Source: an uncultured delta proteobacterium (GTDB lineage Bacteria > Myxococcota_A > Polyangia > Polyangiales > Polyangiaceae). Taken from it: a stretch of 54,760 bases of DNA. Shown here piece after piece: positions 12 to 52,748 of the stretch. The DNA lies in NCBI GenBank assembly GCA_903870415.1, contig CAIQDA010000192.1, positions 1 through 54,760 of the forward strand, read 5' to 3'. Numbering within the stretch: the stretch's first letter is position 1; each line of letters begins with the position of its first letter. The position numbers and the translations under genes were made by a program. The notes beneath the pieces were generated by a model. The model had not been told where the DNA came from and did not search any database. It saw only the letters and a list, made by a program, of their open reading frames with translations.

Positions 12-2720
12 TTGACCTTCATCGGGCTTTCTCGTAGCCCGGCGGTCGTGACGTCGAGTGACTCGGCACCCAAGCGATCGCGCCTGCGTGCCTTTGTGGC
101 CCGGGTTCCCTGGAAGCGGGTTTGCCTCGGTGCGGCTGGTGTCGGCGTGTTGTCGCTCGTCGTGACGCTTCGCCGCGTCGGAGACGTGAAGCGTCTCGCG
201 GCGGCGCTCGAAGACGAAACCGGCGCGGTCGTCGAGGCCTCGTCGCTTCGATGGGAGCCGTCGTCCGGGGTGCTCGGAGACTTCTTCACGGGCCGCTCGC
301 TTCTCTACTTGGCGCGGGTCGCGGCGGCGGAGCCCCGTGACGTGTGGCGCGCGCGCGTTCGTCTCGGGCCGTTCGGACTCATGACCATCGCGCAGGCGGT
401 CGACATCACGGACACTCCGCTCGGCGACGACCATGCGCTCGTCGCGCGAGGACATTTTGCAGCTTTTGCGACACGCGCTTACGATCAAGAACAGGCGGTC
501 ACGCTCCTCGACCTCGATGGCGAGGGGATGCAGAACGAGTGCGATGGACTTGTAGAATGCATGCAAGCGTCCATCACCAATCTGCAAGAGTTCGGCACGC
601 GCGCCGGGGTTGGGCGTGTCGACGTCACGCTTGATCGCGCGGCGCACGCCGTGGGGCTTGAGCTTGAGGGCGACGCGGACTCGTCTCGGAGCCTTGTGAT
701 TCAAGCGGCCCTCGATACGGGCCTTGAGCGATACCGCGTGCCGCTCTCCATGGGCGAGGTGACCGATGCGATCGCAGGCGTGTCGCGCCAGCCTGGACGG
801 CATCTGCCGAAGCGCTTCATTCACTGGGCCGTCGACACGGTGCGATCGATTCCATGGATCGGCCCCGCGCCCATTGCGTGGCTTGAAGAACACGCGTTCG
901 CTGCACGCGACTCGCTCCGTCAAGCGGGCTACGCGGTGCGCGGCGTCAAAAAAGGTACCGAGGTCGACAACGCGGATGCTCCCGTGGCGGTGAAGCCTCC
1001 GCGCGTCGTGCCGCCGAGCGAACTCGTTGACAAGCTCGACGACGGTTCGTTTCCGCCGCCCGCTTTTCGACCGATCCTGAACGATGCGGAACCGGGCGAA
1101 GGCGTTTGGGTCGATGCTTCGCCGACGTGGTTGCCGCGCATCACCGAGGGCGCGCCATCGGCATTCGCAAAATCGTTCGTGCGTCCCGATGCGGAGCGTC
1201 CCGATGTGAAGGTGCTTCTTGTCTCCATCGACATGCGCCAACTCGACTTGGCGATGGAGGCGGGGGCCGAAGATCCGAAGCCTCTCGCGGGCGCGCACGG
1301 GAGCGGTCGCATACCGCGTGATCCCAAGGTATTTCCCCGTGTGCGGGCCACGTTCAACGGGGCGTTCAAGACCGAGCACGGCTTCTACGGCATGATGGTC
1401 GACAAGCGCGTGCTTCTGCCGCCGCAGCCTCGCGCGGCGAGTTTGGCGGTGCTGACCGACGGTCGCGTGGCGATGGGTTTCTGGCCGAGCGTGAAGGACA
1501 TCGAGTCGCTTCCGGTCACCGGCTGCGAGCCCGCGATGGGTCACTTGTGCGACCAGCCGCTTTCCGTTTCCTCGTTCCGGCAGAACCTCGATCCGCTGGT
1601 GGACGGCGATCTCGTGAACCCCACGAAGCGCTTCCAATGGGGTTACACGCTGCCGGGAACGAGCGTGCAAACGGAGCGTTCGGCGGTGTGCGTGCATGCC
1701 TCGGGTCATCTCATTTACGGGTGGGGCGATGACCTCAACGGGACCACGCTCGCGAAGGCGCTTCGTGCCGCGGGCTGTCGTCACGCGATGCACCTCGACA
1801 TGAACCCGCATCACACGGGCTTCGCGTTCACGAACGTCGAGTCGGTCAAGCCACGAAAGCTCAAGGCGGAGCTGCTCTCGCCAACGATGACGATTCAGCC
1901 TGACCGCTACGTAAACGGATCGCCGAAAGACTTCTTCTACCTGCTCGTGCGCAGTGGTCTGCCGCCCGCACCCGAGGGTTTTGCCTGGTCGAAAGCGCCA
2001 GGTCCGCAGCCGTCGCCCGTGTTCGTGCCTGCGGTGTGGGACGCCAAGCTCGACGGTCTCTTGCTCGGAGACTTGAACCTTGCGCGCCTCGACATCACCT
2101 CACTCGACGGTGACCGCACCGAGTGGCGCGTGCGTGCGGGAACGAAGGAACTCGCCAGTGGCACAGGCGTCGAACCGGCCCGCGATCTCGACGACGGTGC
2201 GCATGCGCGTTCGCTCGCGAGCATCCGTATCGGTGTGCTCGCAGACGATCGTGCCTTCGGACTCATCACCGGCGGCCACATCACCCGTCCGCGACAACGC
2301 GAGATCGAAGACAGTGCGTGGCTCATCGCAGAGCCCGGAGAGTCCCTTCGCATCATCGACGACCCCACGACGCTTCGCGACGCGGACGCGGTCGAACTCC
2401 TTCGCGTTCTGCACGGCGGCAAGCTCGTGGACGCGAAGAAATTCCGCGCAGGCGCCAAGCTCGTCATCGGGATCACGAAGGAACGCCGCGTCGTCGCCGT
2501 GCGCGATCCGCAAGGCGATTTGCAGCTTATGGCGAAGGCGTTGCAGCTTCTTGGGTGCGACGAAGCAGTCCTCGCCGATCGCGGCATCGGAGCCTCTGCA
2601 AAGCTCACGCATCGCGCCGGCGACGACGAAGGGGAAGGTCGACTTGTGGCCCTTGCGCGTACGGAGTTGCCGCGGGCGTTTCGCTTTAAGACCGCGGAGC
2701 CGCCCGCGAAGGGCAAGTAG
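12..2720 (+). CDS. Phosphodiester glycosidase (NAGPA/DUF2233-like) domain protein with N-terminal TM segment
   Basis: 902-aa ORF; N-terminal hydrophobic segment; region RVRATFNGAFKTEHGFYGMMVDKRVLLPP...LAVLTDGRVAMGFW and GTTLAKALRAAGCRHAMHLDMNPHHTGF resemble the NAGPA-type fold. Start uncertain (TTG at 12 or GTG at 48). Confidence 0.6.
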   Translation: MTFIGLSRSPAVVTSSDSAPKRSRLRAFVARVPWKRVCLGAAGVGVLSLVVTLRRVGDVKRLAAALEDETGAVVEASSLRWEPSSGVLGDFFTGRSLLYLARVAAAEPRDVWRARVRLGPFGLMTIAQAVDITDTPLGDDHALVARGHFAAFATRAYDQEQAVTLLDLDGEGMQNECDGLVECMQASITNLQEFGTRAGVGRVDVTLDRAAHAVGLELEGDADSSRSLVIQAALDTGLERYRVPLSMGEVTDAIAGVSRQPGRHLPKRFIHWAVDTVRSIPWIGPAPIAWLEEHAFAARDSLRQAGYAVRGVKKGTEVDNADAPVAVKPPRVVPPSELVDKLDDGSFPPPAFRPILNDAEPGEGVWVDASPTWLPRITEGAPSAFAKSFVRPDAERPDVKVLLVSIDMRQLDLAMEAGAEDPKPLAGAHGSGRIPRDPKVFPRVRATFNGAFKTEHGFYGMMVDKRVLLPPQPRAASLAVLTDGRVAMGFWPSVKDIESLPVTGCEPAMGHLCDQPLSVSSFRQNLDPLVDGDLVNPTKRFQWGYTLPGTSVQTERSAVCVHASGHLIYGWGDDLNGTTLAKALRAAGCRHAMHLDMNPHHTGFAFTNVESVKPRKLKAELLSPTMTIQPDRYVNGSPKDFFYLLVRSGLPPAPEGFAWSKAPGPQPSPVFVPAVWDAKLDGLLLGDLNLARLDITSLDGDRTEWRVRAGTKELASGTGVEPARDLDDGAHARSLASIRIGVLADDRAFGLITGGHITRPRQREIEDSAWLIAEPGESLRIIDDPTTLRDADAVELLRVLHGGKLVDAKKFRAGAKLVIGITKERRVVAVRDPQGDLQLMAKALQLLGCDEAVLADRGIGASAKLTHRAGDDEGEGRLVALARTELPRAFRFKTAEPPAKGK

Positions 2721-2759
2721 CGCGCGCCTATCACTCGCCTTGGCACTCGCCTGGCCGCT

Positions 2760-4952: not shown

Positions 4953-5813
4953 ATGAAGCGCTCGCCCATCAGTCCGCGTGTTCCGCCCACCGGCAAGCCC
5001 TGGGACGTGCCCGTGCACGCCGCGCCGCTCGTGTTCATCGACCTCGAAATGAGCGGACTCGTGCTCGGTCTCGATCGCGTCATCGAGCTGTGCATCGAGC
5101 GCGTCGAAGGTGGCGTCGTGGTGGGACGCCTCGAAAGTCTCGTGAAGCCTCCGGCGGGCGTCACGGTGCCTGCGACGGTGCATGGTCTCGACGATGCGAT
5201 GCTCGCCGACGCGCCTCCGTTCGAAGCGCTCGCGGACGAGGTGACTCGGCTGCTTTTCGGTGCCGTGGTCGTGGCGCACGCCGCCCCGTGGGACGTGGCC
5301 TTTCTCGAGGCCGAGCTTTTTTTCTGCGACAAAGCCCTGAAAATTCCGGGGTGGATCGACACGCTGGTGTTGAGCCGCCGCGCGTTTGCGTTTGAGCGTC
5401 ACTCGCTTGAGGCCCTGTGTGGCGAGTTCGGCCTCGAGCGTGCACGGGCCCATCGCGCCGGAGACGACGTGGGCGCCCTACGGCAAGTGTTTGCAAAATG
5501 CATCGAAGCCCTTGAGCCCGCCACGGTGCGTGATCTCACGGGTCTCGGCCCGCGCACGAGCAAGGTTCTCGGCGAGCTCGTCGGCCGTGCCCGCGACGCG
5601 GCGACGAAAGAGACCCCGGTGCAAGTGACCTACCGGGTGCCCGGCAAGGGTCAGCAAAAGATGCTCATGCAGGTGAAGACCGTAAGCGGCGACGACGCTC
5701 AAGGGTTCTCCATCGAGGGTTACTGCACGGCCACGCGCGGGCGCCATGTGCTGCGCCTCGAGCGCGTTGTGTCCGTGGAGTTTCCTCCACCGGCTGCGAC
5801 TACGGCGGTCTGA
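4953..5813 (+). CDS. DEDDh (DnaQ-like) 3'-5' exonuclease with C-terminal WYL-like domain
   Basis: Exo motifs FIDLEMSG, HAAPWDVAFLEAE, HRAGDDVGAL; C-terminal PVQVTYRVPGKGQQKMLMQVKTVSG...IEGYCTATRGRHVLRLERVVSV resembles WYL. ATG at 4953 in the frame of ORF 3384..5813. Confidence 0.8.
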   Translation: MKRSPISPRVPPTGKPWDVPVHAAPLVFIDLEMSGLVLGLDRVIELCIERVEGGVVVGRLESLVKPPAGVTVPATVHGLDDAMLADAPPFEALADEVTRLLFGAVVVAHAAPWDVAFLEAELFFCDKALKIPGWIDTLVLSRRAFAFERHSLEALCGEFGLERARAHRAGDDVGALRQVFAKCIEALEPATVRDLTGLGPRTSKVLGELVGRARDAATKETPVQVTYRVPGKGQQKMLMQVKTVSGDDAQGFSIEGYCTATRGRHVLRLERVVSVEFPPPAATTAV

Positions 5814-5861
5814 CGCGTGCGGGGGCGACTAAACGCCCTCTTCAGCGCTCTTCAGCCCTCC

Positions 5862-7322: not shown

Positions 7323-8507
7323 TCAGGCAACGGGACGCTTCCAGCTGTCGTGGTAGCCGCGGTCTTCGAGCGCTGCGGCCTGTTCGGTCACGAGGAGCGG
7401 CTTGTCCGTGTCCATCATGACCGCGAGTTCGTCCGAGCGCGTGTGCCCAATGCTGGCCTCGTACGCGCCAGGGTGAGGAGCGTGCGGTGTGCCCGCAGGA
7501 TGAAACGAGATGGCTCCCGGACCGACGCCGCGCCGGCTGGTGAAGTTGCCGCGCAAGTAGAGGATGACTTCGTCGCAGTCGACCGACGTGTGCGGGTACG
7601 GGCAAGGGATGGCGTTCGGATGAAAGTCGAGGACCCGCGGCACGAACGAGCAGACGAGGGCGCCCTTGGCGGCGAAGGTCGCGTGGATTGTCGGGGGCAG
7701 ATGAACGAGGCCTGTTTTCGCCTGATAGCGCTCGATCGAAAACGCCCACGGGTAGACGAAGCCGTCCCAACCGACGACGTCCATGGGCGAGCGCACCATG
7801 AGCGACTCGGTGAAGCGGCCGCGGACCTTCGCGACGATCGTGTGCGGGCCTTGTAGCTCCGTGTTGAACGAGTGCACCGGTCCGTCGGGCCGCTTGAAAT
7901 CACGATGCGTGTAAGGTGCATCCATGACGAGCTGGCCGACGCCGTTGCGAAATTGCGCGGGAATATGCACGCCGCCCGAAAACTCCATGACCATCGCGCG
8001 GAGCTCGGCGCCGTCGAGATGCCAGCGGTGCACGAGGCCCTTCGGTACCCAGACGTAATCGCCCGCGTCGACCGAGAGCCAGCCGCACACGCTCTCAAGC
8101 TTGGCGCTGCCCTCGTGAATGAACCAAAGCTCGTCGCCGTCGCCGTTCGAAAAATAGACTTCGTCGCTCTTCGTTGGGCGCACGAGGAGCACGTTGACGT
8201 CGGCGTTCGTGAGAACGGGGAGGCGTGCGTCCAAAAAGGCGCCGCCTGGCGTAACTGCGTTGCTGTTGAAGAGCCGGCGCAGGATGGGATGGTTTCGGTC
8301 TTCGCTCGGAGTAGGCATCGGCCAGCCGCGGGAAGACGAAAACACGTCGAGGTGATCGGTCGTCGGGTACCGATGGTAAAAATAACTGAAGGCTCCGGCG
8401 AAGCCTCCGCGCGTGAACATCTCCTCGTAAACGAGCGAGCCGTCGGGCGCGCGAAACACCGTGTGGGGCTTGTCAGGAAACACGCCCGCGCAATGGCGAT
8501 CGATCAT
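7323..8507 (-). CDS. hmgA: Homogentisate 1,2-dioxygenase
   Basis: ORF from MIDRHCAGVFPDKPHTVFRAPDGSLVYEEMFTRGGF; cupin-like metal-binding residues; adjacent to hpd. Confidence 0.8.
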   Translation of the reverse strand: MIDRHCAGVFPDKPHTVFRAPDGSLVYEEMFTRGGFAGAFSYFYHRYPTTDHLDVFSSSRGWPMPTPSEDRNHPILRRLFNSNAVTPGGAFLDARLPVLTNADVNVLLVRPTKSDEVYFSNGDGDELWFIHEGSAKLESVCGWLSVDAGDYVWVPKGLVHRWHLDGAELRAMVMEFSGGVHIPAQFRNGVGQLVMDAPYTHRDFKRPDGPVHSFNTELQGPHTIVAKVRGRFTESLMVRSPMDVVGWDGFVYPWAFSIERYQAKTGLVHLPPTIHATFAAKGALVCSFVPRVLDFHPNAIPCPYPHTSVDCDEVILYLRGNFTSRRGVGPGAISFHPAGTPHAPHPGAYEASIGHTRSDELAVMMDTDKPLLVTEQAAALEDRGYHDSWKRPVA

Positions 8508-8535
8508 CGTGAGGTCCGTTTCGAACGCATCGCGT

Positions 8536-9699
8536 TCAGGTGGCGCCGCGAGGCTTTTCGTTGCGCTGGGCGCGCTCGATGCTCTCGAAGAGCGCGCGGA
8601 AGTTGCCGTAGCCAAAGCCCGGGTCGCCGGCGCGCTGGATGATCTCGTAGAAGAAGGGGCCCGCGCGGTGGTCGGCGTAAAGCGTGGCCGCCTCGCGGAG
8701 GAAGATCTGGAGCAGGTACCGATCGTTGGCGCCGTCGACGAGCACTTGGAGGCGCTCAAGCTCCGCGAGCTCTTCGCGCACGTTCGTGATGCCGAGCTTC
8801 GCGAGCCGCCCTGGCAGGTCTTCGTAATAAGACTTCGGCGTGTTGAGGAACTCGACGCCGCGGTCACGCAGCGTTTCGACGGTCGAGAGAATGTTCGGCA
8901 CCGCGAAGGCGATGTGCTGCACGCCGGCGCCGTGGTTGTCGTCGACGAACTTGGCGATCTGCGAGTCGCGGAAGAAGGGCCGAAGCGGCTCGTTCGTCGC
9001 GAACTTCACGCCCGAGTGCGGGTCCCACATGACGATGGAGCGCAGGCCAGAACCGCTCGCGCGCTCGGCCGCGACGTCCTTCGTGTGGAAGCTGATTTCC
9101 CAGAAGGGCTCGAAGCCGAGGACGTCCTTGTACCATGCAACAATCGGCTGCATCGTGTAGCCGTTTGACGTGATGTGATCGACCGAGGCGATGCCGAATT
9201 CGTTCGGGACGTTGCCTTCGTTGCCGAGGCCCACGTCTTCGAAGCCCGGCGCGAAGTCCCGGTAGTTCGTCTTCTCAACGAAGCGAAACGCGACGTCGCC
9301 GAGGGGCGTGGCGATTTCAACGGACCGGTAGTGCCCGCCGCGATCGTCGAACGCTTCGACCGGGTCGTGGAGGAACGTGCCGCCGCGACGATCGAGGAAC
9401 TCCATCGTGTCGTCGAGGTTCTCGACGCGGAAGCCCAGCGACATGATGCCCGCCGGGTGTCGCGTGAGGTACCGCGCGGCCTTGCTCTTGTCGGTCTCCT
9501 TCGTGGAGACGCAGACGCGGACTTGGCCTGCGCCGAAGATCTTGGAGCGCTGTCCGGAGCGGGCGACGAAGTCTTCGCGGGCCTTGGAAACCTCGCTGAA
9601 CCCAAGTTTTTGCGTGTAGAATGCAGTCGAGCGTTCGAGGTCCTCCACGCAGAAGTGGAAGTGGTCGTAGCCCAGGATGCCCAGCTTCGCGGAACTCAT
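8536..9699 (-). CDS. hpd: 4-hydroxyphenylpyruvate dioxygenase
   Basis: VOC-type sequence: YDHFHFCVEDLERSTAFYTQKLGF...GVQHIAFAVPNI...PFFYEIIQRAGDPGFGYGNFRALFESIE. Confidence 0.93.
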   Translation of the reverse strand: MSSAKLGILGYDHFHFCVEDLERSTAFYTQKLGFSEVSKAREDFVARSGQRSKIFGAGQVRVCVSTKETDKSKAARYLTRHPAGIMSLGFRVENLDDTMEFLDRRGGTFLHDPVEAFDDRGGHYRSVEIATPLGDVAFRFVEKTNYRDFAPGFEDVGLGNEGNVPNEFGIASVDHITSNGYTMQPIVAWYKDVLGFEPFWEISFHTKDVAAERASGSGLRSIVMWDPHSGVKFATNEPLRPFFRDSQIAKFVDDNHGAGVQHIAFAVPNILSTVETLRDRGVEFLNTPKSYYEDLPGRLAKLGITNVREELAELERLQVLVDGANDRYLLQIFLREAATLYADHRAGPFFYEIIQRAGDPGFGYGNFRALFESIERAQRNEKPRGAT

Positions 9700-11814: not shown

Positions 11815-13200
11815 GTGCGCTTGCGTCGAAGCTTCGTTGTCGCCGCGGCGGCGCTTTTTCTGACGGAAAGTGCGCTCGCCGGCGACGACCGACCTCTTCG
11901 CGAGTGGATGCAAACTGCACGCGTTCCCGAAACACGTGCGGACGCGCTGGCGCGTTTCAGAGCCGCCAAGCCCGCGGACCTGCCCGAGCTCAAGTTGCTC
12001 CTCGACGATGGTCGACGCGTGCCCGGTGAAGGCGTCGCGCGCATGCTCGAAGACCCTCGACGCGATTGCCGATCGAAGGTGAGTGACGCGGACGCTTGGC
12101 TTGGGTGCATCGTCGAAAAGCTCGACGGCAAGACCACGGTCAACGCGAAGAGCGCGACGGAGTTTGCGTGCGCATTGATCGGCGCGCGGGCCATCAAAGG
12201 CATCGACGGTCTTGCGCTCGCGGCAAGTCTTGGCCTCGACGCAAAAGGCGCCTTTGAGCCCGCGGTGCAGCACACCTTGAAGGGTGGGGGCGACGAGGCG
12301 ATCGCTGCACTCTACACGGTGCGTCGCGACGGGTCCGTGGCGCTGAAGAAGTGGGCCGCAGAGCGCCTTGAGGCGATGCACATGCGAAAACCCGCTGAAG
12401 TCGCCACGATGAGCGACGCGGCGTCCGTTGCGCGGGTGCTCTCCATTTTCGGCGCGTGGCATGATCCGGCCGCGCTCGGATTGCTTGTGGAACGCGTCGA
12501 CGCGGACCGTCGAGAGGTGCGCGATGCGGCACGTGCAGGCGTTCGAGCCTATGGCCGAGAAGCCATCTGGAAGTTGCGCGAAGCGTACCGCGAGGTCGCG
12601 GGGCAAGCGGCACCGGACGATTGGTTTTCGAAACGCCTCGCCGACGAGCTCTTTGGACGGCTCGATGCGCGTCGCCTCGGTCCCGCGATGGAGGCTCTCG
12701 ATTCGGCGCGGACGAAGGCAAAAGAGGGCCACGTGCTTGAGGCTGCTGACGAGGCCGAGCGCGCCCTTCGTCTCGCGCCCGACCATCCGGAGCGCCATGA
12801 ATTGGCTGGTTTTCTACTGGCCGCAGCCCGTGACCCGGCGTCCGCTACGCAGCCTGCGGAGCGGCGAGAGTCTCGGCTTTTTCTCGCGTCGCTTGCGGGC
12901 GGAGACGAACTCGCGGCGACGTTGGCGACAGAGCTTCGCGGTCTTCACGCGGACGTGCTTGCGGCGCGTGGCGTGTCGGACCGCACGTTGACCGGAGCGC
13001 CGTCCGCGGTGCCTGTTGCGGAGCCTCGTCGGAATCCAAAGTTCGTTGCGGGCGGAGCTCTCGCGGCGTTCGCGCTCGCGCTTGCGTGGGCCGGTGAGGT
13101 GCTTCGTCGACGCGCAAAGCGAGGCGAACAAAAGGTGCAAGCTGCACCCATCGACGAGAACGCGACGACCGCCGAGGTCTCTAGCGAAGAGCCGTCTTGA
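11815..13200 (+). CDS. HEAT-repeat-like protein, exported, C-terminal TM
   Basis: GTG start at 11815 with signal peptide (VRLRRSFVVAAAALFLTESALAGDD); helical repeats; C-terminal TM ALAAFALALAWAGEVL. Confidence 0.65.
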   Translation: MRLRRSFVVAAAALFLTESALAGDDRPLREWMQTARVPETRADALARFRAAKPADLPELKLLLDDGRRVPGEGVARMLEDPRRDCRSKVSDADAWLGCIVEKLDGKTTVNAKSATEFACALIGARAIKGIDGLALAASLGLDAKGAFEPAVQHTLKGGGDEAIAALYTVRRDGSVALKKWAAERLEAMHMRKPAEVATMSDAASVARVLSIFGAWHDPAALGLLVERVDADRREVRDAARAGVRAYGREAIWKLREAYREVAGQAAPDDWFSKRLADELFGRLDARRLGPAMEALDSARTKAKEGHVLEAADEAERALRLAPDHPERHELAGFLLAAARDPASATQPAERRESRLFLASLAGGDELAATLATELRGLHADVLAARGVSDRTLTGAPSAVPVAEPRRNPKFVAGGALAAFALALAWAGEVLRRRAKRGEQKVQAAPIDENATTAEVSSEEPS

Positions 13201-14305
13201 GGGCGTTGACGACGAAGTCCACGTCGGAGTCGGTCAGCGCGGGGTACATCGGAATCGAGAGAATACGCTGCCATTCGCGCTCAGCGACCGGGCAGAGACC
13301 GGGCTGGGTACCGAAGCGGTCGCGGTAGAACGGGTGCAGGTGCACCGGCATGTAGTGCACGTTCGCGGCGATGCCGGCTTCACGCAAGTTGCGATGAACG
13401 CCCGCGCGATCGGCACCCGCGGGAAGCTTCACGACGAAGAGGTGATACGCATTCTTCGCCTCGGGGCGGTCGCGCAACAGCTCGAGCCCGTCGATGGTGG
13501 CGAGCGCTTCACGGTAACGCGCCGCAATCGCTCGGCGACGTTCGACCCACGGCGCGAGCTTCTTGAGTTGCGAAACCCCGAGCGCGCACTGGATATCGCA
13601 GATGCGGTAATTGAAGCCGAGCTCGACCATCTCGTAATGAAACGTGCCGCGTTGCTCGCGCGTTCGATGGTCGGTGGCGATGCCGTGCGCACGAAAGAGT
13701 CGAAGCCGTGACGCAAGCTCATCGTCGTCCGTCGTGATGGCTCCGCCTTCGCCCGTCGTCACGTGCTTGACCGGGTGGAAGCTGAAGGCCGTCATTGCGG
13801 CAAGAGAGCCCACGGGCTTGTCCTTGTAGGATGCACCGATCGCGTGGCATCCGTCCGCGACGAGGGGAAGGCCATGGGCTGCAGCGAGCGCGTTCAGTTC
13901 GTCCCACGCGCAGGGTTGGCCCGCGTAGTCGACGGCGACGATGGCCTTCGTGCGAGACGTGATTCGAGACGCCACCGAGGCGACATCGATGGTGAGCGTG
14001 TCGGTTTCGACGTCCGCGAAGACGGGGGTTGCGCCCTCGAACACCGCTGCATTGGCGGTCGCGACGAAGGTCACCGCGGGGACGATGACTTCATCGCCTG
14101 GCCCGACGCGAAGAGCGTGCATGGCGCAGTGAAGAGCCGCAGTCCCGTTCGAAACGGCGACCGCGTGTTTGGTTCCCGCAGCGGCGGCAACGGACCGTTC
14201 GAAGAGCTCGACGTTGGGGCCCGTCGTCAGCCACGCTCCACGAAGAACCTCGACGACGGCGTTGATGTCATCGTCGTCGACGGTCTGTCGCCCATAGGGA
14301 ATCAT
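13181..14305 (-). CDS. pseC: UDP-4-amino-4,6-dideoxy-GlcNAc (PseC-type) transaminase, DegT/DnrJ/EryC1/StrS family
   Basis: MIPYGRQTVDDDDINAVVEVLRGAWLTTGPNVELFE; PLP Lys region TAFSFHPVKHVTTGEGGAI; ATGA overlap with pseB. Confidence 0.9.
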   Translation of the reverse strand: MIPYGRQTVDDDDINAVVEVLRGAWLTTGPNVELFERSVAAAAGTKHAVAVSNGTAALHCAMHALRVGPGDEVIVPAVTFVATANAAVFEGATPVFADVETDTLTIDVASVASRITSRTKAIVAVDYAGQPCAWDELNALAAAHGLPLVADGCHAIGASYKDKPVGSLAAMTAFSFHPVKHVTTGEGGAITTDDDELASRLRLFRAHGIATDHRTREQRGTFHYEMVELGFNYRICDIQCALGVSQLKKLAPWVERRRAIAARYREALATIDGLELLRDRPEAKNAYHLFVVKLPAGADRAGVHRNLREAGIAANVHYMPVHLHPFYRDRFGTQPGLCPVAEREWQRILSIPMYPALTDSDVDFVVNALKTALR

Positions 14306-15287: not shown

Positions 15288-16217
15288 TCAGAACCTCCGC
15301 TGGAAGACGTCTTCAAACGAATGACGTCCACCCTCATCTTGGTTGCGAGGTCCGCGCGCGATGTTCAGCGCGGACTCGGCGATGTCGCTCAATAGCTGCT
15401 CGCCGCTAAGGCGATTCGAGGCAAACCCGAAGGTCGACGGCGGAAGAAATCCGCCTAGACCCAATGGTCGAGTAGATGCAGAATGCATGCCACTGTGCGC
15501 GGCCCCGTTGACCGTGTTCACGCGTGGCGCTGTTGCGGCGACCGCACCGTCTGTCGCGTCGCCGATCGCATCGGCTCCAAGCGAAGCGGCGCGGTTTGCG
15601 AGGGAGGAAATCGCGCTCGTGTACTGAGCCTCGGGCGCGGTGAAGTAGCCGCCTTTTTTCAGCCCGTGGACGAATCCCTGCGCATCGCCCGTGCGTGCCG
15701 CATCGAGCGCGGAGCCGTATCGTTTCGAGAGAAGGCGCACGTAATCGGTCGCACCTTCTTGCGGCGTCTCGTAGGCGCGAAACCCGTCGGTGATCGAAAC
15801 GGTCTTGCCGTTCTCGACCTCGTGCGTGCCGTAGCGAGCGGTGAGGCCAGTGGGGCCGGCACCTTTGATGCCGCCGAAGTTGTTGTTCATCATCGCCTTG
15901 CCGCGTCCCGTTTCGAGGGACCACTGGGCGAGGAGAAGGTGCGAAGTTTTGTCGTTGGGCTCTTCGCCGAAGACGTTGCGCCACGCTTGCGAGAGGGCGG
16001 CCTTGGCTTCGCTTCCACTCAGCTTTGTCGTTCGCGGAGTGACCACCGTGATGGGGCGCTTGCCCGGCGCCGTGGCCTCGGGCTTCGCGACGTTCGCATC
16101 GAGCAGCGACCGAAACGTGTCGTTGCGCACGCCCTCATGAGCGTCGACCACGCGACCAACGGCAGCGTAGTCCTGGAGAACGGGGGGGAGGGTGAAGTCG
16201 GAAGGCACGGCGTCCAT
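15288..16217 (-). CDS. Glucosaminidase-domain (FlgJ-like) peptidoglycan hydrolase
   Basis: LLLAQWSLETGRGKAMMNNNFGGIKGAGPTG...FRAYETPQEGATDYVRLLSKRYGSALDAA. Confidence 0.8.
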   Translation of the reverse strand: MDAVPSDFTLPPVLQDYAAVGRVVDAHEGVRNDTFRSLLDANVAKPEATAPGKRPITVVTPRTTKLSGSEAKAALSQAWRNVFGEEPNDKTSHLLLAQWSLETGRGKAMMNNNFGGIKGAGPTGLTARYGTHEVENGKTVSITDGFRAYETPQEGATDYVRLLSKRYGSALDAARTGDAQGFVHGLKKGGYFTAPEAQYTSAISSLANRAASLGADAIGDATDGAVAATAPRVNTVNGAAHSGMHSASTRPLGLGGFLPPSTFGFASNRLSGEQLLSDIAESALNIARGPRNQDEGGRHSFEDVFQRRF

Positions 16218-34526: not shown

Positions 34527-34531
34527 TCTGC

Positions 34532-35104: not shown

Positions 35105-37003
35105 ATGTTTCTCGAAATCCACGACCCCAAAGCTCCTCCGCGCGCCATTGGCATCGACCTTGGCACCACGAACTCCATCGTGGCGTGCATCTCGAACGAG
35201 TGCCCGATTCCCATCGCGGACTGCAACGGAGAGACCCTCGTTCCTAGCGTCGTGTGCTTCGATAAAAGCGGCGACGTCATCGTCGGAACGCGAGCCCGCG
35301 AACGAGCGGCGCTCCAGCCGAAGGAAACCATCGTCAGCGTGAAGCGCTTCATCGGCCGCGCGAACGACGACTCGGAAACGCGGCGCCTTGGGCCTTACAC
35401 CTTCGTCGCACCCAAGCCCGGTGAAGCCAATCTCGTGCGCTTCGACGTGGGCATCGACCACCCGGTCACGCCGATCGAAGTGAGCGCGTACATTCTCGCG
35501 GAGCTTCGCCAGCGCGCGGAAGACGATCTCGGACGCATCGGCGGCGCGGTCATCACGGTCCCCGCGTACTTCGACGACACGCAGCGACAGGCAACGAAAG
35601 AAGCCGCGAAGATGGCGGGCATCGAGGTGCTCCGGCTCATCAACGAACCCACGGCGGCCGCTCTCGCGTACGGACTCGATCAAAAAAAGAACGGTCTCTT
35701 CGCGGTGTACGACCTTGGTGGCGGAACGTTCGACATCACCATTCTTCATCTCGACGACGGCGTTTTTCAGGTGAAATCCACGGGTGGCGACAGCCAGCTT
35801 GGTGGTGACGACATGGACCGCGTGGTCGCCGAAGCACTCGCGGACGACCTCGGTCTTGCGGACGAGGTGACGCACTCGGCGCTCGTCTCCCGGGCGTTGC
35901 TCACGGCCGCAAAGGCGTTGAAGCATGCGCTCACGGGGGCCGAGAGCGCCGAGTACGTCCTCGAAGACGGATCGGTCCTTGCCGGAAAACGTGTGCAACT
36001 TACACGCAGTCGCTTCGACGCGCTCGTGATGCCGCTGCTCGATCGAACCGGTCGTGCGTGCAAGCGAGCGCTTCGCGATGCGGAGGTGAAGCCCGATGCC
36101 CTCGACGGCGTGATCCTCGTCGGCGGTTCAACGCGCGTTCCGGCGGTGCAGCGCTTCGTGGAGCAGGTCTTCGGACAGACGCCGCTCACGGACGTCGACC
36201 CGGATCTGGCGGTGGCCCTTGGGGCTGCCATTCAAGCCGACATCCTCGCGGGCGCGGGAAACATGCCGGAGGTGCTGCTTCTCGACGTGCTTCCGCTTTC
36301 GCTTGGCATCGAGGTTGGCGGCGGCGTGGTCGACAAGATTCTCCCGCGAAACACGACCATTCCCGCGGGCGCTCGCGCCTCGTACACGACGGCCGAAGAC
36401 GGACAGACGGGGTTCGATCTCCACGTGGTTCAGGGCGAGCGTGAGATAGCTGCAGACTGCAGAAGTCTTGCGCACTTCGTCCTCAAGGGCATTCCCCCGA
36501 TGGCTGCAGGCTTGGCACGGCTTGAGGTATCGTTTCGCGTCGACGCCGATGGCATCTTGAGCGTTCACGCCGTGGAAACCACCACGGGCGTCGAGCAAGT
36601 CGTCGAGGTGAAACCGTCGTCGGGTCTCGACGATGCGACGGTCGAGACGATGCTTCTCGAAGCGTACGACCAGGGCGAGGCGGATCTCCTGCGCCGCCGT
36701 ATCGCGGAAGCGCGCAGCGAATGCGAGCGCCTGGGACGTGCGGCAGAGCGAGCGCTCAAGGCCGATGCGCGCATGCTCGAAGAGGGCGAACGCGAGATTA
36801 TCGATGAGGCGCTTCGAGCGCTTCAAGCGGCCGTCGAGGGCTCGGACGCGGACGTGATGCGCCGTGCGATGGAACACGTCGATGCGGTGACGAAGCCCTT
36901 CGCGGTGCGCAGGATGAATCATGCGATCGCCGAAGCACTCGCGGGGCGGACCATCGACGATGTGGACGCGAAGCCCGCGCTCATGCAAGGAGGCGCATCA
37001 TGA
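35105..37003 (+). CDS. hscA: Hsp70-family chaperone HscA
   Basis: [17 protein letters not shown]...[36 protein letters not shown]. Confidence 0.95.
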
Positions 37004-37362
37004 GCGATTCTGCTGAAGCCATCGTTGTCTTCGAAGGGCGCGGCGAGGTCCGTGTCGGCATCGGCACCTCGCTCCTTGTCGCTGCGCAAAAAGGCCACTT
37101 CCCCGAGGGGTCGGCGTGCGGCGGCGTCTGCGCGTGTTCGACGTGCCACGTGTACGTGAAAGAGGGCGGCGCTCTCTTGTCGGAGCTCGAGGACGAAGAG
37201 AACGACGTTCTCGACAAAGCCTTCGACGTGCGCGCCAATTCGCGGCTCGGTTGTCAGGCGAAGATCGAACGGCCGGGGCGCATCGTGGTCGACATCACGC
37301 GCGAGAGCCTTGATGCATTCTACAACGAACATCCGGACGAGCGCGCGCACCGCAACGGCTAA
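37000..37362 (+). CDS. fdx: 2Fe-2S ferredoxin of ISC type
   Basis: [24 protein letters not shown] overlap with hscA. Confidence 0.93.
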
Positions 37363-41723: not shown

Positions 41724-42764
41724 GTGAAGCGCATCGTCATCAAGAAGCCCGGTTCCTGGAAAGCCCTTGAGCTCGAAACCTGTGCCGACCCGCCGGAACC
41801 CAAGGCCTCGGAAGTCGTCATCGATACAGCGTATTCCGGCGTCAATTTTGCGGATGTTGTCGCGAGGCAAGGCCTCTACGAATCGGCGAACAAGCAGATC
41901 GGCTACCCGATGTGCCTCGGCTTCGAGTGGTCGGGGCGTGTCGCAGCCGTTGGGGCCGACGTGAGGGACTTGGCCGTCAACGACGAGGTCTTCGGCGTCT
42001 CGAAGTTTGGTGGCTACGCGAGCCGCCTTGTTCTCGATCGTCGCTTCGTGTTCAAGCGTCCAGCGTCGTTCAGTCTTGCGGAGGCGGCAGCGTTTCCCGT
42101 GGCATTTCTCACGGCGTTCTATGGGCTCGTCGAACTCGGTGCTGCGAAAAAAGGCCAAGCCGTTTTGGTGCATTCGGCGGCAGGTGGCGTGGGTGGCGCC
42201 ATCGCGCAGCTGGCCCGCGCACGTGGCTGCCGCGTCTTCGGCGTCGTCGGGTCCGAGCACAAGAAGGACGCCGCGCTCCGCTTCGGCTGCGACGCCGTAA
42301 GCGTGAAGCCCGAGGGCTCGCGGACGTGGATCGACGAGGCTCGCGCGTTTGCTCCCGAAGGGTACGCGGTCGTCCTCGATGCAAACGGAGCCGAGACACT
42401 GCGTGCAAGCTACAACCTTCTCGCTACGCCCGGGCGCCTCGTGATTTACGGCTTTCATACGATGTTTCGCCGGGGTGGAGGTCGAACCGATTGGCTGCGT
42501 TTGGCCTGGCAATGGCTCCGCACGCCGCGCTTTGATCCGCTCGCCATGACGAACGACAACAAGGCCGTGTTTGGCTTCAACCTGTCGTACCTTTTCGATG
42601 AGGCAGAGCTTCTTGAGCGGGCCATGGGCGGGTTTCTCGACGGCGTCGCGCAGGGCCAACTTGTGGCGCCACCGGTCGTGGAGGTGCCCGCCGCGAGCGT
42701 GGGCGAGGCGCACCAAAAACTCGAAAGCGGCCGCACCGTCGGCAAGGTCGTTCTGCGGTGGTGA
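41724..42764 (+). CDS. Medium-chain dehydrogenase/quinone oxidoreductase (VAT1-like)
   Basis: GVNFADVVARQGLYESA...YPMCLGFEWSGRVAAVG...VLVHSAAGGVGGAIAQLARARG. GTG start. Confidence 0.85.
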   Translation: MKRIVIKKPGSWKALELETCADPPEPKASEVVIDTAYSGVNFADVVARQGLYESANKQIGYPMCLGFEWSGRVAAVGADVRDLAVNDEVFGVSKFGGYASRLVLDRRFVFKRPASFSLAEAAAFPVAFLTAFYGLVELGAAKKGQAVLVHSAAGGVGGAIAQLARARGCRVFGVVGSEHKKDAALRFGCDAVSVKPEGSRTWIDEARAFAPEGYAVVLDANGAETLRASYNLLATPGRLVIYGFHTMFRRGGGRTDWLRLAWQWLRTPRFDPLAMTNDNKAVFGFNLSYLFDEAELLERAMGGFLDGVAQGQLVAPPVVEVPAASVGEAHQKLESGRTVGKVVLRW

Positions 42765-43742: not shown

Positions 43743-45824
43743 ATGCGCATCCGAGCCCTCACGATTCCCGCTGCTTTGCTGTCCGTTTCCGCCGTGGCGT
43801 GTTCGCCCGAAGCCGCGGTGCCGCCTGCCATGCCCGTGATGGAGGCCTCGTCCGCGACCGTGGTGGCGCCGAGCTATGCGCAAGGCCCCGGGCTCGACCG
43901 CTCCGCCATCGACGAGAGCACGAGCGCGTGCACGGACTTCTACCAGCACGCGTGTGGCGCTTGGTTGAAGAATACACCCATCCCCGATGACAAGGCCGGG
44001 TGGACGCGGAGCTTCAGCGTCATCGACGAGAAGAACAAAGAACTCTTGAAGGCCATTCTCACGGACCTCTCCGCGGGCAAGACTGGCGGCGTCGCGTTCG
44101 GCAAAGAGATGGCCTCGGTTTACGGCGCGTGCATGGACGAGAGCGCCATCGAGAAGCGGGGAGCCAAGCCGCTCGCGCCCATCTTCACGACAGTGAACCG
44201 CCTCACCAAAAAGAACCTCGCCGAAACGCTCGCTGCGCTCCATACGCAGGGAATTCCCGCGTTCTTCGCCTTCGGTCCGACGCCCGACGCGAAGGACTCG
44301 TCGCAGATGATCGGCGACCTCGTGCAGGGCGGCATCGGCCTTCCGGACCGCGATTACTACTTCGACGACGACGCGAAGACGAAGGAAGTACAGTCCGCAT
44401 ACCGCAAATACCTCGAAACGCTCTTCACGCTTTCGGGCAAGAAGCCCGCGGCGGCCAAGCAGCTTGCGGAGGACGTGTACGGCCTCGAGAAGCGTCTCGC
44501 CGAACACATGATGAACAAGGTCGATCGCCGTGACCCACAGAAGGTCACCAACAAGATGGACCTCGCGAAGGTTGAGTCGCTCGCGCCGGGCTTCTCGTGG
44601 AAGACCTACTTGAAGATGATGAAGGTCTCCGATGCGGTGGCCATCAACGTGTCGATGGTCGCGTACATGAAGGCGCTCCCGGAGCGCTTCGACAAGGAGC
44701 CTCTCCCCCTCGTGAAGAGCTACCTTGAAGCGCGCATTTTGAGCTCGACGGCCACGCAACTTTCGAAGCCGTTCGACGATGCGGCGTTCGCCTACAAGGC
44801 GGCACTCACGGGCCAAAAGACCCGCGAAATCCGCTGGAAGCGCTGCGTCGGTCTCGTCAACGACGGCATGGGCGAGGCTCTCGCGCAGCCCTTCGTCGCT
44901 AAGACGCTTGGCGATGGCGGCAAGGACGCCGTGCAGAAGCTCATCATGGCGATCGAGGCCTCGATGGAGGCACGCCTTCCGACGCTCGCGTGGATGGACG
45001 ACGAGACGCGCGCGAAGGCTTTTGAAAAGGTCCGCGCCATCGTGAACAAGGTGGTGCACCCGTCCAAGTGGCGCAGCTACGAGGGACTCGCGGTGAAGGC
45101 CGGCGACCACTTCGGCAACGTGCTTGCGGCCGAGGCTTTTGAAAACGCCCGCCAAATGACGAAGGTCGGAAAGCCCGTGGACCGCGAAGAATGGTTCATG
45201 AGCCCGCCGGACGTGAACGCGTATTACGACGCGCAGACCAACCAAATGGTCTTCCCCGCGGGCATCTTGCAGCCGCCGTTTTACGGACCGCAGAACGCGA
45301 AGAGCGCGAACTTCGGCGCCATTGGCATGGTCATGGGGCACGAGCTCACGCACGGTTTCGACGACGAGGGCCGCCAGTTTGACGCGAAGGGCAACCTCAC
45401 CGATTGGTGGACGCCGGCCTGCTCGAAGGGCTTCGACGAGCGCGCCGAATGTGTGGTTGCACAATACAACGACTTTGTTCCAATCGATGATCTCCACGTG
45501 AACGGAAAGCTCACGCTCGGCGAGAACCTCGCGGACCTCGGCGGCATCAACCTCGCCTACCAGGCGATGATGAGCGACGCCGAAGCCAGCAAGACGGGCA
45601 GCGCAGGGTTCACCCCGCAGCAGACGTTCTTCTATGCGTACGCGCAGTCCTGGTGCACGAACCAGCGTCCAGAGATGCAGCGCCTCCGCGTGAAGACGGA
45701 CCCGCACTCGCCACCGAAGTTTCGCGTCAACGGCCCGCTCACGAACATGCCTGCGTTCCGCGAGGCATTCGCCTGCAAAGCCGGCGATGCGATGATCCGA
45801 GAAAACGCCTGCCGCGTCTGGTGA
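43743..45824 (+). CDS. M13 family metallopeptidase, probable lipoprotein
   Basis: Lipobox-like SAVACSPE; GMVMGHELTHGFDDEGRQFD; LTLGENLADLGGINLAY. Confidence 0.95.
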   Translation: MRIRALTIPAALLSVSAVACSPEAAVPPAMPVMEASSATVVAPSYAQGPGLDRSAIDESTSACTDFYQHACGAWLKNTPIPDDKAGWTRSFSVIDEKNKELLKAILTDLSAGKTGGVAFGKEMASVYGACMDESAIEKRGAKPLAPIFTTVNRLTKKNLAETLAALHTQGIPAFFAFGPTPDAKDSSQMIGDLVQGGIGLPDRDYYFDDDAKTKEVQSAYRKYLETLFTLSGKKPAAAKQLAEDVYGLEKRLAEHMMNKVDRRDPQKVTNKMDLAKVESLAPGFSWKTYLKMMKVSDAVAINVSMVAYMKALPERFDKEPLPLVKSYLEARILSSTATQLSKPFDDAAFAYKAALTGQKTREIRWKRCVGLVNDGMGEALAQPFVAKTLGDGGKDAVQKLIMAIEASMEARLPTLAWMDDETRAKAFEKVRAIVNKVVHPSKWRSYEGLAVKAGDHFGNVLAAEAFENARQMTKVGKPVDREEWFMSPPDVNAYYDAQTNQMVFPAGILQPPFYGPQNAKSANFGAIGMVMGHELTHGFDDEGRQFDAKGNLTDWWTPACSKGFDERAECVVAQYNDFVPIDDLHVNGKLTLGENLADLGGINLAYQAMMSDAEASKTGSAGFTPQQTFFYAYAQSWCTNQRPEMQRLRVKTDPHSPPKFRVNGPLTNMPAFREAFACKAGDAMIRENACRVW

Positions 45825-45872
45825 TGCATCACGCGCTCGTCGCGTGAGACGTGTGCAAAGTACAGCGCGTAC

Positions 45873-47235: not shown

Positions 47236-47997
47236 ATGTTTGCACCTCGAGCGCACCGTCCGCGTCCCCTGCGCTTCCTCGTGCAAGCGACCACGTTCAC
47301 CGTGTCGCTGTTCGTGCTCGCCCCGTTGCTCGTGTGCGCCGGGCTCTTGCCGGGCCGTCGCTTCGTGGCTCCGCTTCTGCGCGCATGGGGTCGCTCGATG
47401 CTTGCGGCGTGCGGCGTGCGTCTCGTTCTTGAACCCGGCGTGGCCGAAGAGTTCGCGGTGCCACGGCGCCGCGTGATGACGATCAACCACACGTCGACGC
47501 TCGACATCTTCGTCGCCACGGCGTTCTGGCCCGTCGGTGCAACCGTCGTCATAAAGCGCGAGTTCTTGTTCTTGCCCGTCCTCGGACAGCTCGCTTGGGC
47601 GATTGATGCGGTCGCGATCGATCGAAAAAATCGCTCGACCGCCGTGGCAGCACTCGCGGGCGCAGCGGAACGTATTCGCGCGGAAAATCGCACGATTATC
47701 GTGGCTCCCGAAGGTACGCGCTCGCGCACCGGAGAGCTTCAGCCCTTCAAGCTTGGGGCCTTTCACCTCGCGGCCGAGGCTGACGCGCCGATATTGCCCG
47801 TGGTCATGCACGGCAATCGCGAACTGTGGCCCATGGGCCAGACGACGTGCGCGCCAGGCACCGTCACCGTGCGTGTTCTCGAAGAAGAAGCGCCTCCGCA
47901 TGCGGGCGATGATCTTCACGCTCGCGCAGAAGACCTGCGTGCAAAATACAAGAAAGCCCTCGACGCGATGGCTCTCGAGATCCCCGTCACCGAGTGA
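47236..47997 (+). CDS. plsC: 1-acyl-sn-glycerol-3-phosphate acyltransferase (PlsC-like)
   Basis: INHTSTLDIFVATAFWP...APEGTRSRTGELQPFKLGAFHLA. Confidence 0.9.
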   Translation: MFAPRAHRPRPLRFLVQATTFTVSLFVLAPLLVCAGLLPGRRFVAPLLRAWGRSMLAACGVRLVLEPGVAEEFAVPRRRVMTINHTSTLDIFVATAFWPVGATVVIKREFLFLPVLGQLAWAIDAVAIDRKNRSTAVAALAGAAERIRAENRTIIVAPEGTRSRTGELQPFKLGAFHLAAEADAPILPVVMHGNRELWPMGQTTCAPGTVTVRVLEEEAPPHAGDDLHARAEDLRAKYKKALDAMALEIPVTE

Positions 47998-48015
47998 TCG
48001 CGTTACCCGTGCGCT

Positions 48016-48582: not shown

Positions 48583-49238
48583 GGGGACGGCATGCCGCAG
48601 AGGTTTCCCGAGAGCTCGCGTCCCGCGGAGAAAACCGCAGGGCAGTACGTGCCGCCGGCTGTCTGGTCGAGGAGCTCGGACATGAAGCCGCCTGTCCAAT
48701 CACGTGGACCGTCGAAGCGTGCGCGGATGACGCCGCGGTCGTCGATGAGCCAGGTTTCGGGGTATTTCTTCGTGCCGAAAAGCTTCGTGACGACCTCGCG
48801 CTCCGGATCGAAAAGCACGGGAAAAGGCGGCTCTCCGCCGATGACGGCCTTCAGCGCCGCGAGAGACTCGGCTTGGTCCTCGTCCGTCGAGACGGTGACG
48901 ATTGCAATGTCGCGCCGGTCCGCGAGCGTCTTGGCGAGCTCTGCGAGGTCGGGCATCTCTTCCATGCAAGGTGCACACGTCATCGACCAGAAATTCAAGA
49001 GCACCGTCTTGCCACGGAGTGACGCCATCGAGAGGCGTTCGCCCTTGTGACCTGCGAGCTCGAAGTCCGGCGCGACTTTGTTCGCAGCAGCGTACGTCGG
49101 GTGCGAGAGGCAGAAAGCTCCGCAGCGGCGCCGAAGCTCACCGTCTTGGGCCGTGCGCACAAAGCCGAACGTGGCCGCCGCGGCAACGACGATGAACGCA
49201 AGCTGCGCGGCCGGCGTGATGAATTTCAGGGCTCCCAT
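48579..49238 (-). CDS. TlpA-like thiol:disulfide oxidoreductase
   Basis: N-terminal TM; APDFELAGHKGERLSMASLRGKTVLLNFWSMTCAPCMEEMPDL. Confidence 0.9.
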   Translation of the reverse strand: MGALKFITPAAQLAFIVVAAAATFGFVRTAQDGELRRRCGAFCLSHPTYAAANKVAPDFELAGHKGERLSMASLRGKTVLLNFWSMTCAPCMEEMPDLAELAKTLADRRDIAIVTVSTDEDQAESLAALKAVIGGEPPFPVLFDPEREVVTKLFGTKKYPETWLIDDRGVIRARFDGPRDWTGGFMSELLDQTAGGTYCPAVFSAGRELSGNLCGMPSP

Positions 49239-49273
49239 GAGGTCGTCGAAGCTAGCACCGGTCGCGGCGCGGT

Positions 49274-50788
49274 TCACGCAGCGACGACGGGAAGCTTGCG
49301 CGTCAGGGGACTCCGGGTGCCCAGCTCGTCGAGAGCTTTGTAGGCTTTCTTGTAGTCTGCAAACGTTCCGCCGGCGCGCACCGCATCGGCGACCGCCAGT
49401 CCCTCGGCCTCACCGCCTTGCGCGAGGACCCACTCGACCCAGGCCCACTTGGCGCTCGTGGACCGGATGTCGACGCGACCTTTGACCCCGCGGCGAAGCT
49501 GCTCAAGGCGCTCTTGCACGACGTCGATTCCCGCAAACGGCATGCCGTCGAGGGGCGTGTTGCGCTTCGAAACGAAGGGCGCGATGCCAAGCGAAAGCGG
49601 GATAATTCGCGAGAGTTCCGTCGTGAAACGCACGCACTCGTCCACGTCTTCGGGGCCTTCGCCCGGGGTGCCGACCATCAGGTAGAGCTTCAAGCGATCC
49701 ATGCCCTTCTCGCGGGCGAGTCGAGCGCAGCGTTCGATTTGCTCTTCCTTCGCTTTGCGATCGAGCGAGGCACGGACGCGCTGACTCGTGCCGTCCATCG
49801 CGGTCGTCAACGTGCGGTAGCCGACGCGGGCGAGGGCGCTCACGAAGGCGTCGTTCATGCGGTCGGGACGCAGCGACGAGAGGCCCACCTGCTTGCCCTT
49901 GTCGGCGAGCTCGTTGAGGATCTCGACGATTTTTGGGTGGTCGCTCACGGCCGCGCCGACAAGTCCGACCTTCGGCGCGTCGTCGGGAATGAGGCTGAGA
50001 ATCTTGGCTTTCGGCACGATGCGCATGCCGCCATTCGTCGAGCGTCGCATGACGCAGTACTTGCACCCGCGCGAGCAGCCGCGTTCCGCCTCAAGGAGGA
50101 ACATGTTCGAAAACTCCGCGTGCGGCGTGCGGATGGGGCCCCACGCGGGCAGCAGATCATCGTCGATGGACGCGATGCTTGCGAGTAGCCCTCCGTGGAT
50201 CGCCGGGACGGTGATGGACGGAAGTTTCGCGAGGCCTTCGAGCTGCGCTGTGCGGGTCTCTGCAGAATACAAGATGTCGAGCGCAGGCCCGATGAGCTCT
50301 TCAGCCTCGCCCATGATGAACGCGTCGGCGTAACCAAGAAGCGGTGCTGGATTCGAAAAGGTGAGGGGCCCGCCGAGCAGAAGAAAGGGGTGCTCGGGTC
50401 CGCGATCGCGACGGTTTGTAGGAATGCCCGCTGCGTCGAGCATGCGCACGAGGCCCGCGATTTCGAGTTCGTAGGCGACCGAAACGCAGATGACCCGGTA
50501 CGACGAGATCGGGCGCATCGCCTCGTACGTCAGCACGTCGGCGACTTGGGCTCCGGGCTCGTCACCGCCGTCGGCGAGGAATGCGCGATGGGCGACGAAC
50601 CCGTCTTGCTCTTGGATTGAGCGGTAGATGCGTTGAAACCCGAGCGAGCTCATGCCCGCGGCGTACGGAGACGGGTAGGCGAGGGCGACCGCATGAGGCG
50701 CGTCCTTGTCCATGCGGCCTGTCTCGTCGGCGAGGCGCTGGCGTACGAGATCCCGAAAACCAGGTGATTTGCTTCGAGTACGACCCAC
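49274..50788 (-). CDS. Radical SAM protein with B12-binding-like N-terminal domain
   Basis: LEAERGCSRGCKYCVMRR (Cx3Cx2C); LYLMVGTPGEGPEDVDECVRF. Confidence 0.88.
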   Translation of the reverse strand: MGRTRSKSPGFRDLVRQRLADETGRMDKDAPHAVALAYPSPYAAGMSSLGFQRIYRSIQEQDGFVAHRAFLADGGDEPGAQVADVLTYEAMRPISSYRVICVSVAYELEIAGLVRMLDAAGIPTNRRDRGPEHPFLLLGGPLTFSNPAPLLGYADAFIMGEAEELIGPALDILYSAETRTAQLEGLAKLPSITVPAIHGGLLASIASIDDDLLPAWGPIRTPHAEFSNMFLLEAERGCSRGCKYCVMRRSTNGGMRIVPKAKILSLIPDDAPKVGLVGAAVSDHPKIVEILNELADKGKQVGLSSLRPDRMNDAFVSALARVGYRTLTTAMDGTSQRVRASLDRKAKEEQIERCARLAREKGMDRLKLYLMVGTPGEGPEDVDECVRFTTELSRIIPLSLGIAPFVSKRNTPLDGMPFAGIDVVQERLEQLRRGVKGRVDIRSTSAKWAWVEWVLAQGGEAEGLAVADAVRAGGTFADYKKAYKALDELGTRSPLTRKLPVVAA

Positions 50789-50943
50789 GGGGCGATGCTT
50801 AGGCCGAAACGTGAGAGATGCAAGCCTTGCGGCCGTGTTTGTCGAAGTCGCGTGTATCCTTCATGCATTCGCGGCGAGGGCTTTGCTTCGACTTCGTTGC
50901 GTTTCGCTTCGAGGTCCGAGGAAAGCGGGTTAGGCGGAGCCCC

Positions 50944-52071: not shown

Positions 52072-52748
52072 TCGAACGTTTGAAGAGTGCAATGGTCGGC
52101 GCTGGCGCCGAGTGGGTTCTTTGGCTCATGCTCGGCCTGAGCGTCATCTCGCTCGCCATCATGCTTGAGCGCGCATGGCTGTATTATACACTCAGCGATG
52201 ACGTCGAAGCGCTGATGCGTGACCTCGCGAAGTTGCTTCGTGGCGGTGACCTCAAGGGTGCCAAGGCGCGTCTCGAGCTGTCCGCAAGCTCGGAGGCGGC
52301 CGTTGTGGGTGCAGGCCTCGCGGAAGCGGACCTTGGTTCTGCGTCGGTCGAAGAGGCCATGGCGGGCGCTCAATCGCTTCAGCGAATCAAGCTCGAGCGT
52401 CGCCTCGCGTTTCTCGGAACCGTGGGAAACAACGCGCCATTCATTGGGCTTCTCGGCACGGTCATCGGCATCGTCGGCGCGTTCGACGAACTCGGCAAAG
52501 CCTCGCAAGCTCCCGCTCAAGGTGCAGCTTCCGCCGCCGCAGGGGCCCTCGCACCGCAAGCGGTCATGACCAACATCGCCGAAGCGCTCGTCGCCACGGC
52601 GGTGGGTCTCGTCGTCGCCATCCCTGCGGTGGCCGCGTACAACATCTTCATGCGCCAGGTGAAAGAGACCTCGGCGAATACCGACGCCCTCGGGCACGTG
52701 CTCCTCGCGCACCTCAAGAGCAACGGCTCCGGCGCGGAGAAAGCCTGA
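52068..52748 (+). CDS. exbB: MotA/TolQ/ExbB proton channel family protein
   Basis: LAFLGTVGNNAPFIGLLGTVIGIVGAF; VMTNIAEALVATAVGLVVAIPAVAAYN; ATGA overlap with truD. Confidence 0.93.
   Translation: MIERLKSAMVGAGAEWVLWLMLGLSVISLAIMLERAWLYYTLSDDVEALMRDLAKLLRGGDLKGAKARLELSASSEAAVVGAGLAEADLGSASVEEAMAGAQSLQRIKLERRLAFLGTVGNNAPFIGLLGTVIGIVGAFDELGKASQAPAQGAASAAAGALAPQAVMTNIAEALVATAVGLVVAIPAVAAYNIFMRQVKETSANTDALGHVLLAHLKSNGSGAEKA

Follow-up and report, generated by a model that had tools for sequence, protein, structure and literature searches.

What reads the gapped palindrome TGYA-N3-TRCA that recurs throughout this locus, and at which level is it kept? The window, i.e., the whole 54,760-nt stretch of DNA analysed, belongs to a Myxococcota MAG (G000; 4.69 Mb in 511 contigs) and carries exactly 30 copies of the word with its three-base spacing (k=3). 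The other spacings from k=0 to k=20 yield 0–4 copies each (mean 1.4), among them isolated copies for k=0 at 558 and for k=5 at 30733. The recount agrees with the original prediction in the number of sites, in every coordinate cited there and in the rarity of other spacings; the GC content, assumed there to be near 67%, is 64.5%. The sites delivered by the motif scan of the window, with no strand assigned, are the following:

551..561, TGTAGAATGCA
5492..5502, TGCAAAATGCA
7910..7920, TGTAAGGTGCA
9129..9139, TGTACCATGCA
9615..9625, TGTAGAATGCA
11909..11919, TGCAAACTGCA
12306..12316, TGCACTCTACA
13136..13146, TGCAAGCTGCA
13825..13835, TGTAGGATGCA
15477..15487, TGCAGAATGCA
19914..19924, TGTAGAGTGCA
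21254..21264, TGCAACGTGCA
21711..21721, TGCAACCTGCA
24064..24074, TGCAGAATGCA
24365..24375, TGTACTCTGCA
25142..25152, TGTATTCTGCA
26605..26615, TGCACTTTGCA
30742..30752, TGCAAACTACA, lost in G002, which has TACGGCTTACA
34522..34532, TGTAGTCTGCA, spans the stop of a + strand ORF (ends 34526) and the ATG at 34532; retained in G002 as TGTAGTATGCA
35994..36004, TGCAACTTACA, within hscA; retained in G002 as TGCAGATTACA, missing in alignable orthologs from other genera
36451..36461, TGCAGACTGCA, within hscA; no site in G002 (CGCCGACTGCC); alters residues kept by many relatives
37314..37324, TGCATTCTACA, one mismatch in G002 (TGCCTATTACA)
42404..42414, TGCAAGCTACA
45458..45468, TGCACAATACA
45854..45864, TGCAAAGTACA, intergenic according to the gene calls, the converging genes ending at 45824 (+) and 46012 (-)
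47940..47950, TGCAAAATACA, outside every called gene
48965..48975, TGCAAGGTGCA
49351..49361, TGTAGTCTGCA
50261..50271, TGCAGAATACA
52180..52190, TGTATTATACA

The site at 34522, originally assigned to the iscA/hscB junction, indeed contains both the stop and the ATG, and the one at 45854, described as intergenic, is placed between converging genes. The site at 36451 replaces an RRLP-like peptide of HscA that is retained in many relatives. No hscA site is common to different genera among the + oriented orthologs, which were the alignable ones (minus-strand loci were left out).

The excess extends to the whole genome, in which TGYA-N3-TRCA occurs 2004 times, about once per 2 kb, versus 115 times for the reversed pattern. 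The direct analysis covered approximately 1.18 Mb of the congener G002 and 0.52 Mb of G000, with other spacings, permuted half-sites and ortholog comparison as null controls. In 800 kb of G002 the peak at k=3 has the same sharpness (408 copies vs. 6–52 at other k), and it is also present in G006, G013, G026 and G079. When all gapped 4-mer pairs of G002 are ranked against the expectation from other spacings in the same codon phase, TGCA-N3-TGCA, TGTA-N3-TGCA and TGTA-N3-TACA take ranks 1–3 (z of 88, 73 and 54, respectively). The original prediction was to be abandoned if no such peak existed genome-wide; the peak is found, so this objection fails and the observation of an over-represented palindrome is correct. 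The dominance of two coding registers noted in the window also holds in G002, whose coding sites distribute among codon phases 1/2/0 as 167/166/25.

The two species G000 and G002 belong to one genus and are 74% identical over 140 kb of orthologous DNA. In this comparison G002 retains all eight defined bases in 40 of the 54 sites of G000. The proportion falls to 15/61 when these half-sites are taken at other spacings (Fisher 9e-8) and to 23/88 when the half-sites are permuted and k=3 is kept (Fisher 2e-8). Identity per base reaches 0.88–0.93 in the core, 0.86 at position -1 and 0.82 at position -4, while the N3 bases (0.71–0.73) change at the background rate. In a smaller first alignment of the same genomes, A/T at third codon positions was retained in 28/44 cases inside cores and in 1453/4726 elsewhere, i.e., about twice as often inside. 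Conservation that depends on spacing and includes synonymous bases reflects a constraint on DNA, not on protein, and is no coding artefact. The spacing controls and synonymous-site conservation rule out a peptide or codon-usage explanation, in line with the initial view that no single peptide motif accounts for the sites. Preservation at the DNA level inside unrelated genes implies that something in the cell reads the palindrome chromosome-wide, and the fact that individual sites take precedence over the choice among synonymous codons, and in some cases over the amino acid, argues that this reader matters to the cell.

The two halves of the word behave as separate units. The Y of each half varies independently, as do the left and right flank bases; the TGCA/TACA combination is as common as TGTA/TGCA, and no compensatory changes between arms, as expected of an RNA hairpin or terminator, are seen. 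The arms thus need not pair and each half is read separately in duplex DNA, which rules out an RNA hairpin or cruciform and points to a symmetric protein that recognises the site as double-stranded DNA. With the preferred flank bases included, the palindrome reaches 25 bp, aaaTgcG-TGYA-nWn-TRCA-CgcAttt (as a concrete sequence, AAATGCGTGCAGACTGCACGCATTT). These flank preferences are the same in G000, in G002 and in sites pooled from G006, G013, G026 and G079, which agree at positions -5, -4, -1 and in the central W, so that the preferences are common to five genera. One-off forms counted with perfect sites masked are at chance level (467 vs. 479 expected in G002; 201 vs. 175 in G000), TGYG alone being in mild excess, and recognition appears for this reason nearly all-or-none. 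Note that an apparent depletion of one-offs was an artefact of counting half-sites inside perfect sites, which disappeared after masking.

The closest named relative by HscA is a MAG labelled Polyangium aurulentum (82%), apparently the same as G002. Among 108 genomes of the family, site density ranges from a background of 4–12/Mb up to 480/Mb, and a strong excess (about 25–480 sites/Mb) is restricted to one clade of the family, which is probably Polyangiaceae. Across 237 genomes of the phylum the excess is absent or weak and no further group is similarly rich; outside the family the highest values are ~65–75/Mb, with a ratio to the backward pattern of 2–3. In a tree of HscA, the one protein on which clade placement rests, every genome that carries 50 or more sites/Mb belongs to a single clade (support 100/99), where G059 is the only motif-poor member. 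Since the rich genomes form one clade, the rise in site number seems to have happened once, with density varying widely afterwards. Dialects of the word were not found in other genera among 4-mer gapped palindromes (G006, G013, G026, G079, G021 and G059). A literature search retrieved the exact word only within LuxO sites, and no myxobacterial report of it was found.

Within genes the sites are uniform along the length and Poisson per gene, and spacing between sites is near-Poisson (CV 0.99). Density depends on the arrangement of neighbouring genes, as called with a simple in-house codon-usage caller. In G002 (1.18 Mb) it amounts to 0.47/kb in genes, 2.14 in converging gaps, 0.55 in tandem gaps and 0.16 in diverging gaps; the respective values in G000 are 0.41, 1.19, 0.48 and 0.23, the diverging-gap densities resting on few sites (4 in G002 and 3 in G000). 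The sites thus seem to gather where sequence is otherwise unconstrained and to be poorly tolerated near promoters. Their scarcity between diverging genes argues against promoter control, and this pattern of accumulation and avoidance is more readily expected of a bound or modified site than of the operator of a regulator.

The most likely reading, on which our confidence is evenly balanced, is that TGYA-N3-TRCA is the chromosome-wide recognition site of a putative dimeric, sequence-specific DNA-binding protein. The word would be a highly iterated chromosomal site, read as duplex by a symmetric protein, presumably a bound homodimer, that makes contact with two TGYA half-sites at a seven-base distance and responds to flanks as far as ~12 bases from the centre. 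A selection or conversion process would preserve each site at the DNA level, and its rise in abundance would have been a single event within one clade of the family. Its role would be chromosome-wide (architecture, segregation or a DNA-processing mark) rather than the control of single promoters. We propose more tentatively, with slightly less than even confidence, that the reader is a clade-specific dimer of a hitherto undescribed system, reading ~2000 strictly conserved 11-bp palindromes (25 bp when extended), retained even at a cost to proteins, in order to organise, segregate or mark the chromosome. The analogy to nucleoid proteins initially suggested agrees with the flank preferences and the sparse sites in diverging gaps, but no gene for a nucleoid or architectural reader was found: every Fis-type HTH (HTH_8) protein inspected in G002 is an ordinary sigma-54 activator, and the genomes checked yielded no standalone Fis-like protein. 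All-or-none recognition is stricter than is typical of nucleoid proteins and more enzyme-like, which counts against a bound nucleoid protein.

Next in likelihood, though rather improbable, is methylation of the HIP type, in which a core orphan beta-class N6/N4 methyltransferase (G000:C337; G002:C1:48.8-49.8 kb) would modify TGYANNNTRCA, and methylation-directed repair or marking would make and keep the sites. All-or-none specificity with clean Y/R degeneracy is what an enzyme would display, and such enzymes accompany the cyanobacterial HIPs (PMC4390886). G000 and G002 each have a single full-length PF01555 enzyme, the orphan one; it has orthologs in 9/9 motif-rich genomes of the PF01555 panel and in 34/35 genomes with at least 25 sites/Mb, and G059, nearly motif-free inside the rich clade, is without it. 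Other methyltransferases are poorer candidates. The m5C enzymes (PF00145) are missing from 7/9 motif-rich genomes tested and type I enzymes are not shared, G027 having a weak hit only. A Dam-like D12 enzyme occurs in 9/9 motif-rich genomes tested, but its recognition segment matches the GATC motif of Dam/DpnM; its target is thus probably GATC and it is unlikely to read the palindrome. Against methylation, the orphan enzyme is also carried by 41 genomes with fewer than 25 sites/Mb, and its likely target-recognition region showed no change specific to the clade. The enzyme cannot be sufficient for the motif, but may be necessary for it. A further point against it is G116 (112 sites/Mb; 88% complete), in which no copy was found. 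Methylation alone accounts neither for the A/T flanks nor for the density pattern around genes. The methylase analogy of the original prediction is possible, with one shared candidate enzyme that also occurs in motif-free relatives. The neighbours of its gene code, by inspection, for a DnaJ-like and a chemoreceptor-like protein, and no restriction enzyme was recognisable among the neighbouring proteins read by eye. A restriction-modification site does not fit, as the sites are in strong excess rather than avoided or neutral and no endonuclease was recognised by eye beside the methyltransferase.

The remaining explanations are less probable still. A DNA-uptake sequence, i.e., a palindrome preferred by the competence machine that accumulates by transformation-driven molecular drive, is doubtful. 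Density (0.42–0.49 per kb, comparable to the roughly 0.5–1 per kb of an uptake word), near-Poisson spacing, A/T flanks and enrichment in converging gaps resemble USS/DUS, and ComEC-type genes are present. However, one-mismatch forms are not over-represented, unlike the ~11-fold excess reported for the Pasteurellaceae uptake sequence, and known uptake sequences are non-palindromic (PMC1939737). The uptake analogy raised for the window is weakened by the chance-level one-offs. ComEC is equally present in motif-free relatives and was discarded as a discriminator between rich and poor genomes. Even more remote is the operator of one global transcription factor, such as a Fis-fold enhancer-binding protein like LuxO: half-site and spacing are identical to the LuxO consensus TTGCA-N3-TGCAA (PMC3352281), but ~2000 mostly intragenic copies, fewest between divergent genes and recognised all-or-none, do not suit it. 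The least credible account, to which we give almost no weight, is an RNA hairpin, a terminator or a by-product of codon/dipeptide usage. GTGCA-N3-TGCAC could fold and converging gaps are enriched, but the arms do not covary, third codon positions are kept in favour of the DNA word and the same words at other spacings lack a comparable excess, so that this account is largely refuted.

The function of highly iterated palindromes is an old open question, based largely on cyanobacteria, whose HIP1 and alternate HIPs are GCGATCGC, GGCGCC, rCCGGy and GCsGC (Elhai 2015, PMC4390886). By appearance these are the closest kind, and of the three analogies originally drawn the HIP1-like one is the best descriptive match. 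Both are palindromic with palindromic extensions, clade-associated, present at hundreds or more per Mb, and found in genomes that have orphan methyltransferases. As in HIPs, the myxobacterial word lies far above genome-wide expectation (rank 1 in G002) and is dispersed in coding and non-coding DNA. It differs in being gapped, TGYANNNTRCA instead of a continuous GC-rich word such as GCGATCGC, and in belonging to another phylum. One-off forms of HIPs are common (PMC4390886), those of the Synechocystis decamer being ~11-fold above expectation (PMC1939737), whereas myxobacterial one-offs are not in excess; the link to methylation is here a candidate only, one shared orphan enzyme that also occurs in motif-free relatives. 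The word is thus a real, strongly conserved and clade-restricted highly iterated palindrome, of the HIP kind by its look and with a different one-off pattern. Its unrelated sequence, other phylum, single traceable origin and density of about 25–480/Mb among relatives set it apart, and the origin, density range and measurable conservation of each site make reader identification and comparative tests feasible. If a clade-specific dimeric reader exists, the word would represent a second kind of highly iterated palindrome, one that lies outside cyanobacteria and is independent of theirs.

Other systems share individual features. The USS/DUS of Pasteurellaceae and Neisseriaceae have similar density, graded A/T flanks and raised density in some intergenic regions, but the myxobacterial word is palindromic, its one-offs are at chance and no specific uptake machinery was identified, ComEC occurring in rich and poor genomes. 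The LuxO (NtrC-family) operator shares half-site and spacing and is found at a handful of promoter sites. The geometry of Fis-type sites, YA-N3-TR, is also shared with the half-site and spacing of the word. MatP, SlmA and Noc are DNA-binding dimers whose strict palindromic sites serve the whole chromosome; these number tens per genome, compared with ~2000 copies of TGYA-N3-TRCA for the reader proposed here.

Two methyltransferase genes and two kinds of repeated element were located in the host genome (G000), its congener G002 or the window:

L162:2778-3617 (G000:C80), Dam-like adenine methyltransferase gene
L204/L231 (G002:C1:48822-49766) and L207/L229 (G000:C337), orphan beta-class methyltransferase
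G002 C5:54086-54196 (L144), tandem repeats of 33-bp units within a called gene
Window 33705, 41824 and 53913, ATAC-N3-GTAT

The Dam-like protein, a close match to DpnM, belongs to a family with a copy in all nine motif-rich genomes tested. Two TGYA-N3-TRCA sites lie within the L162 gene itself, at 3455 and 3497, 42 bp apart. The orphan beta-class methyltransferase is single-copy and is found in 90 of the 108 family genomes; at most motif-rich loci examined, the gene after it is chemoreceptor-like.

Each 33-bp unit of the G002 tandem repeats carries one TGYA-N3-TRCA copy. A second gapped palindrome, ATAC-N3-GTAT, is likewise dispersed and shares the N3 spacing of TGYA-N3-TRCA. It occurs 23 times in 800 kb of G002 (C1-C16), versus 0-10 at other spacings, usually as ATACNNCGTAT or its complement; GTAT-N7-GTAT is also enriched. 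The gapped 4-mer scan of 800 kb of G002 detected additional repeated words, CCTG-N2-AATT/AGGG-AATT, several-fold above other spacings.

Two genomes from other families of the same class display a weak TGYA-N3-TRCA excess over the control that is possibly real: G309, with 160 versus 24 in 3.7 Mb, and G193, with 109 versus 28.
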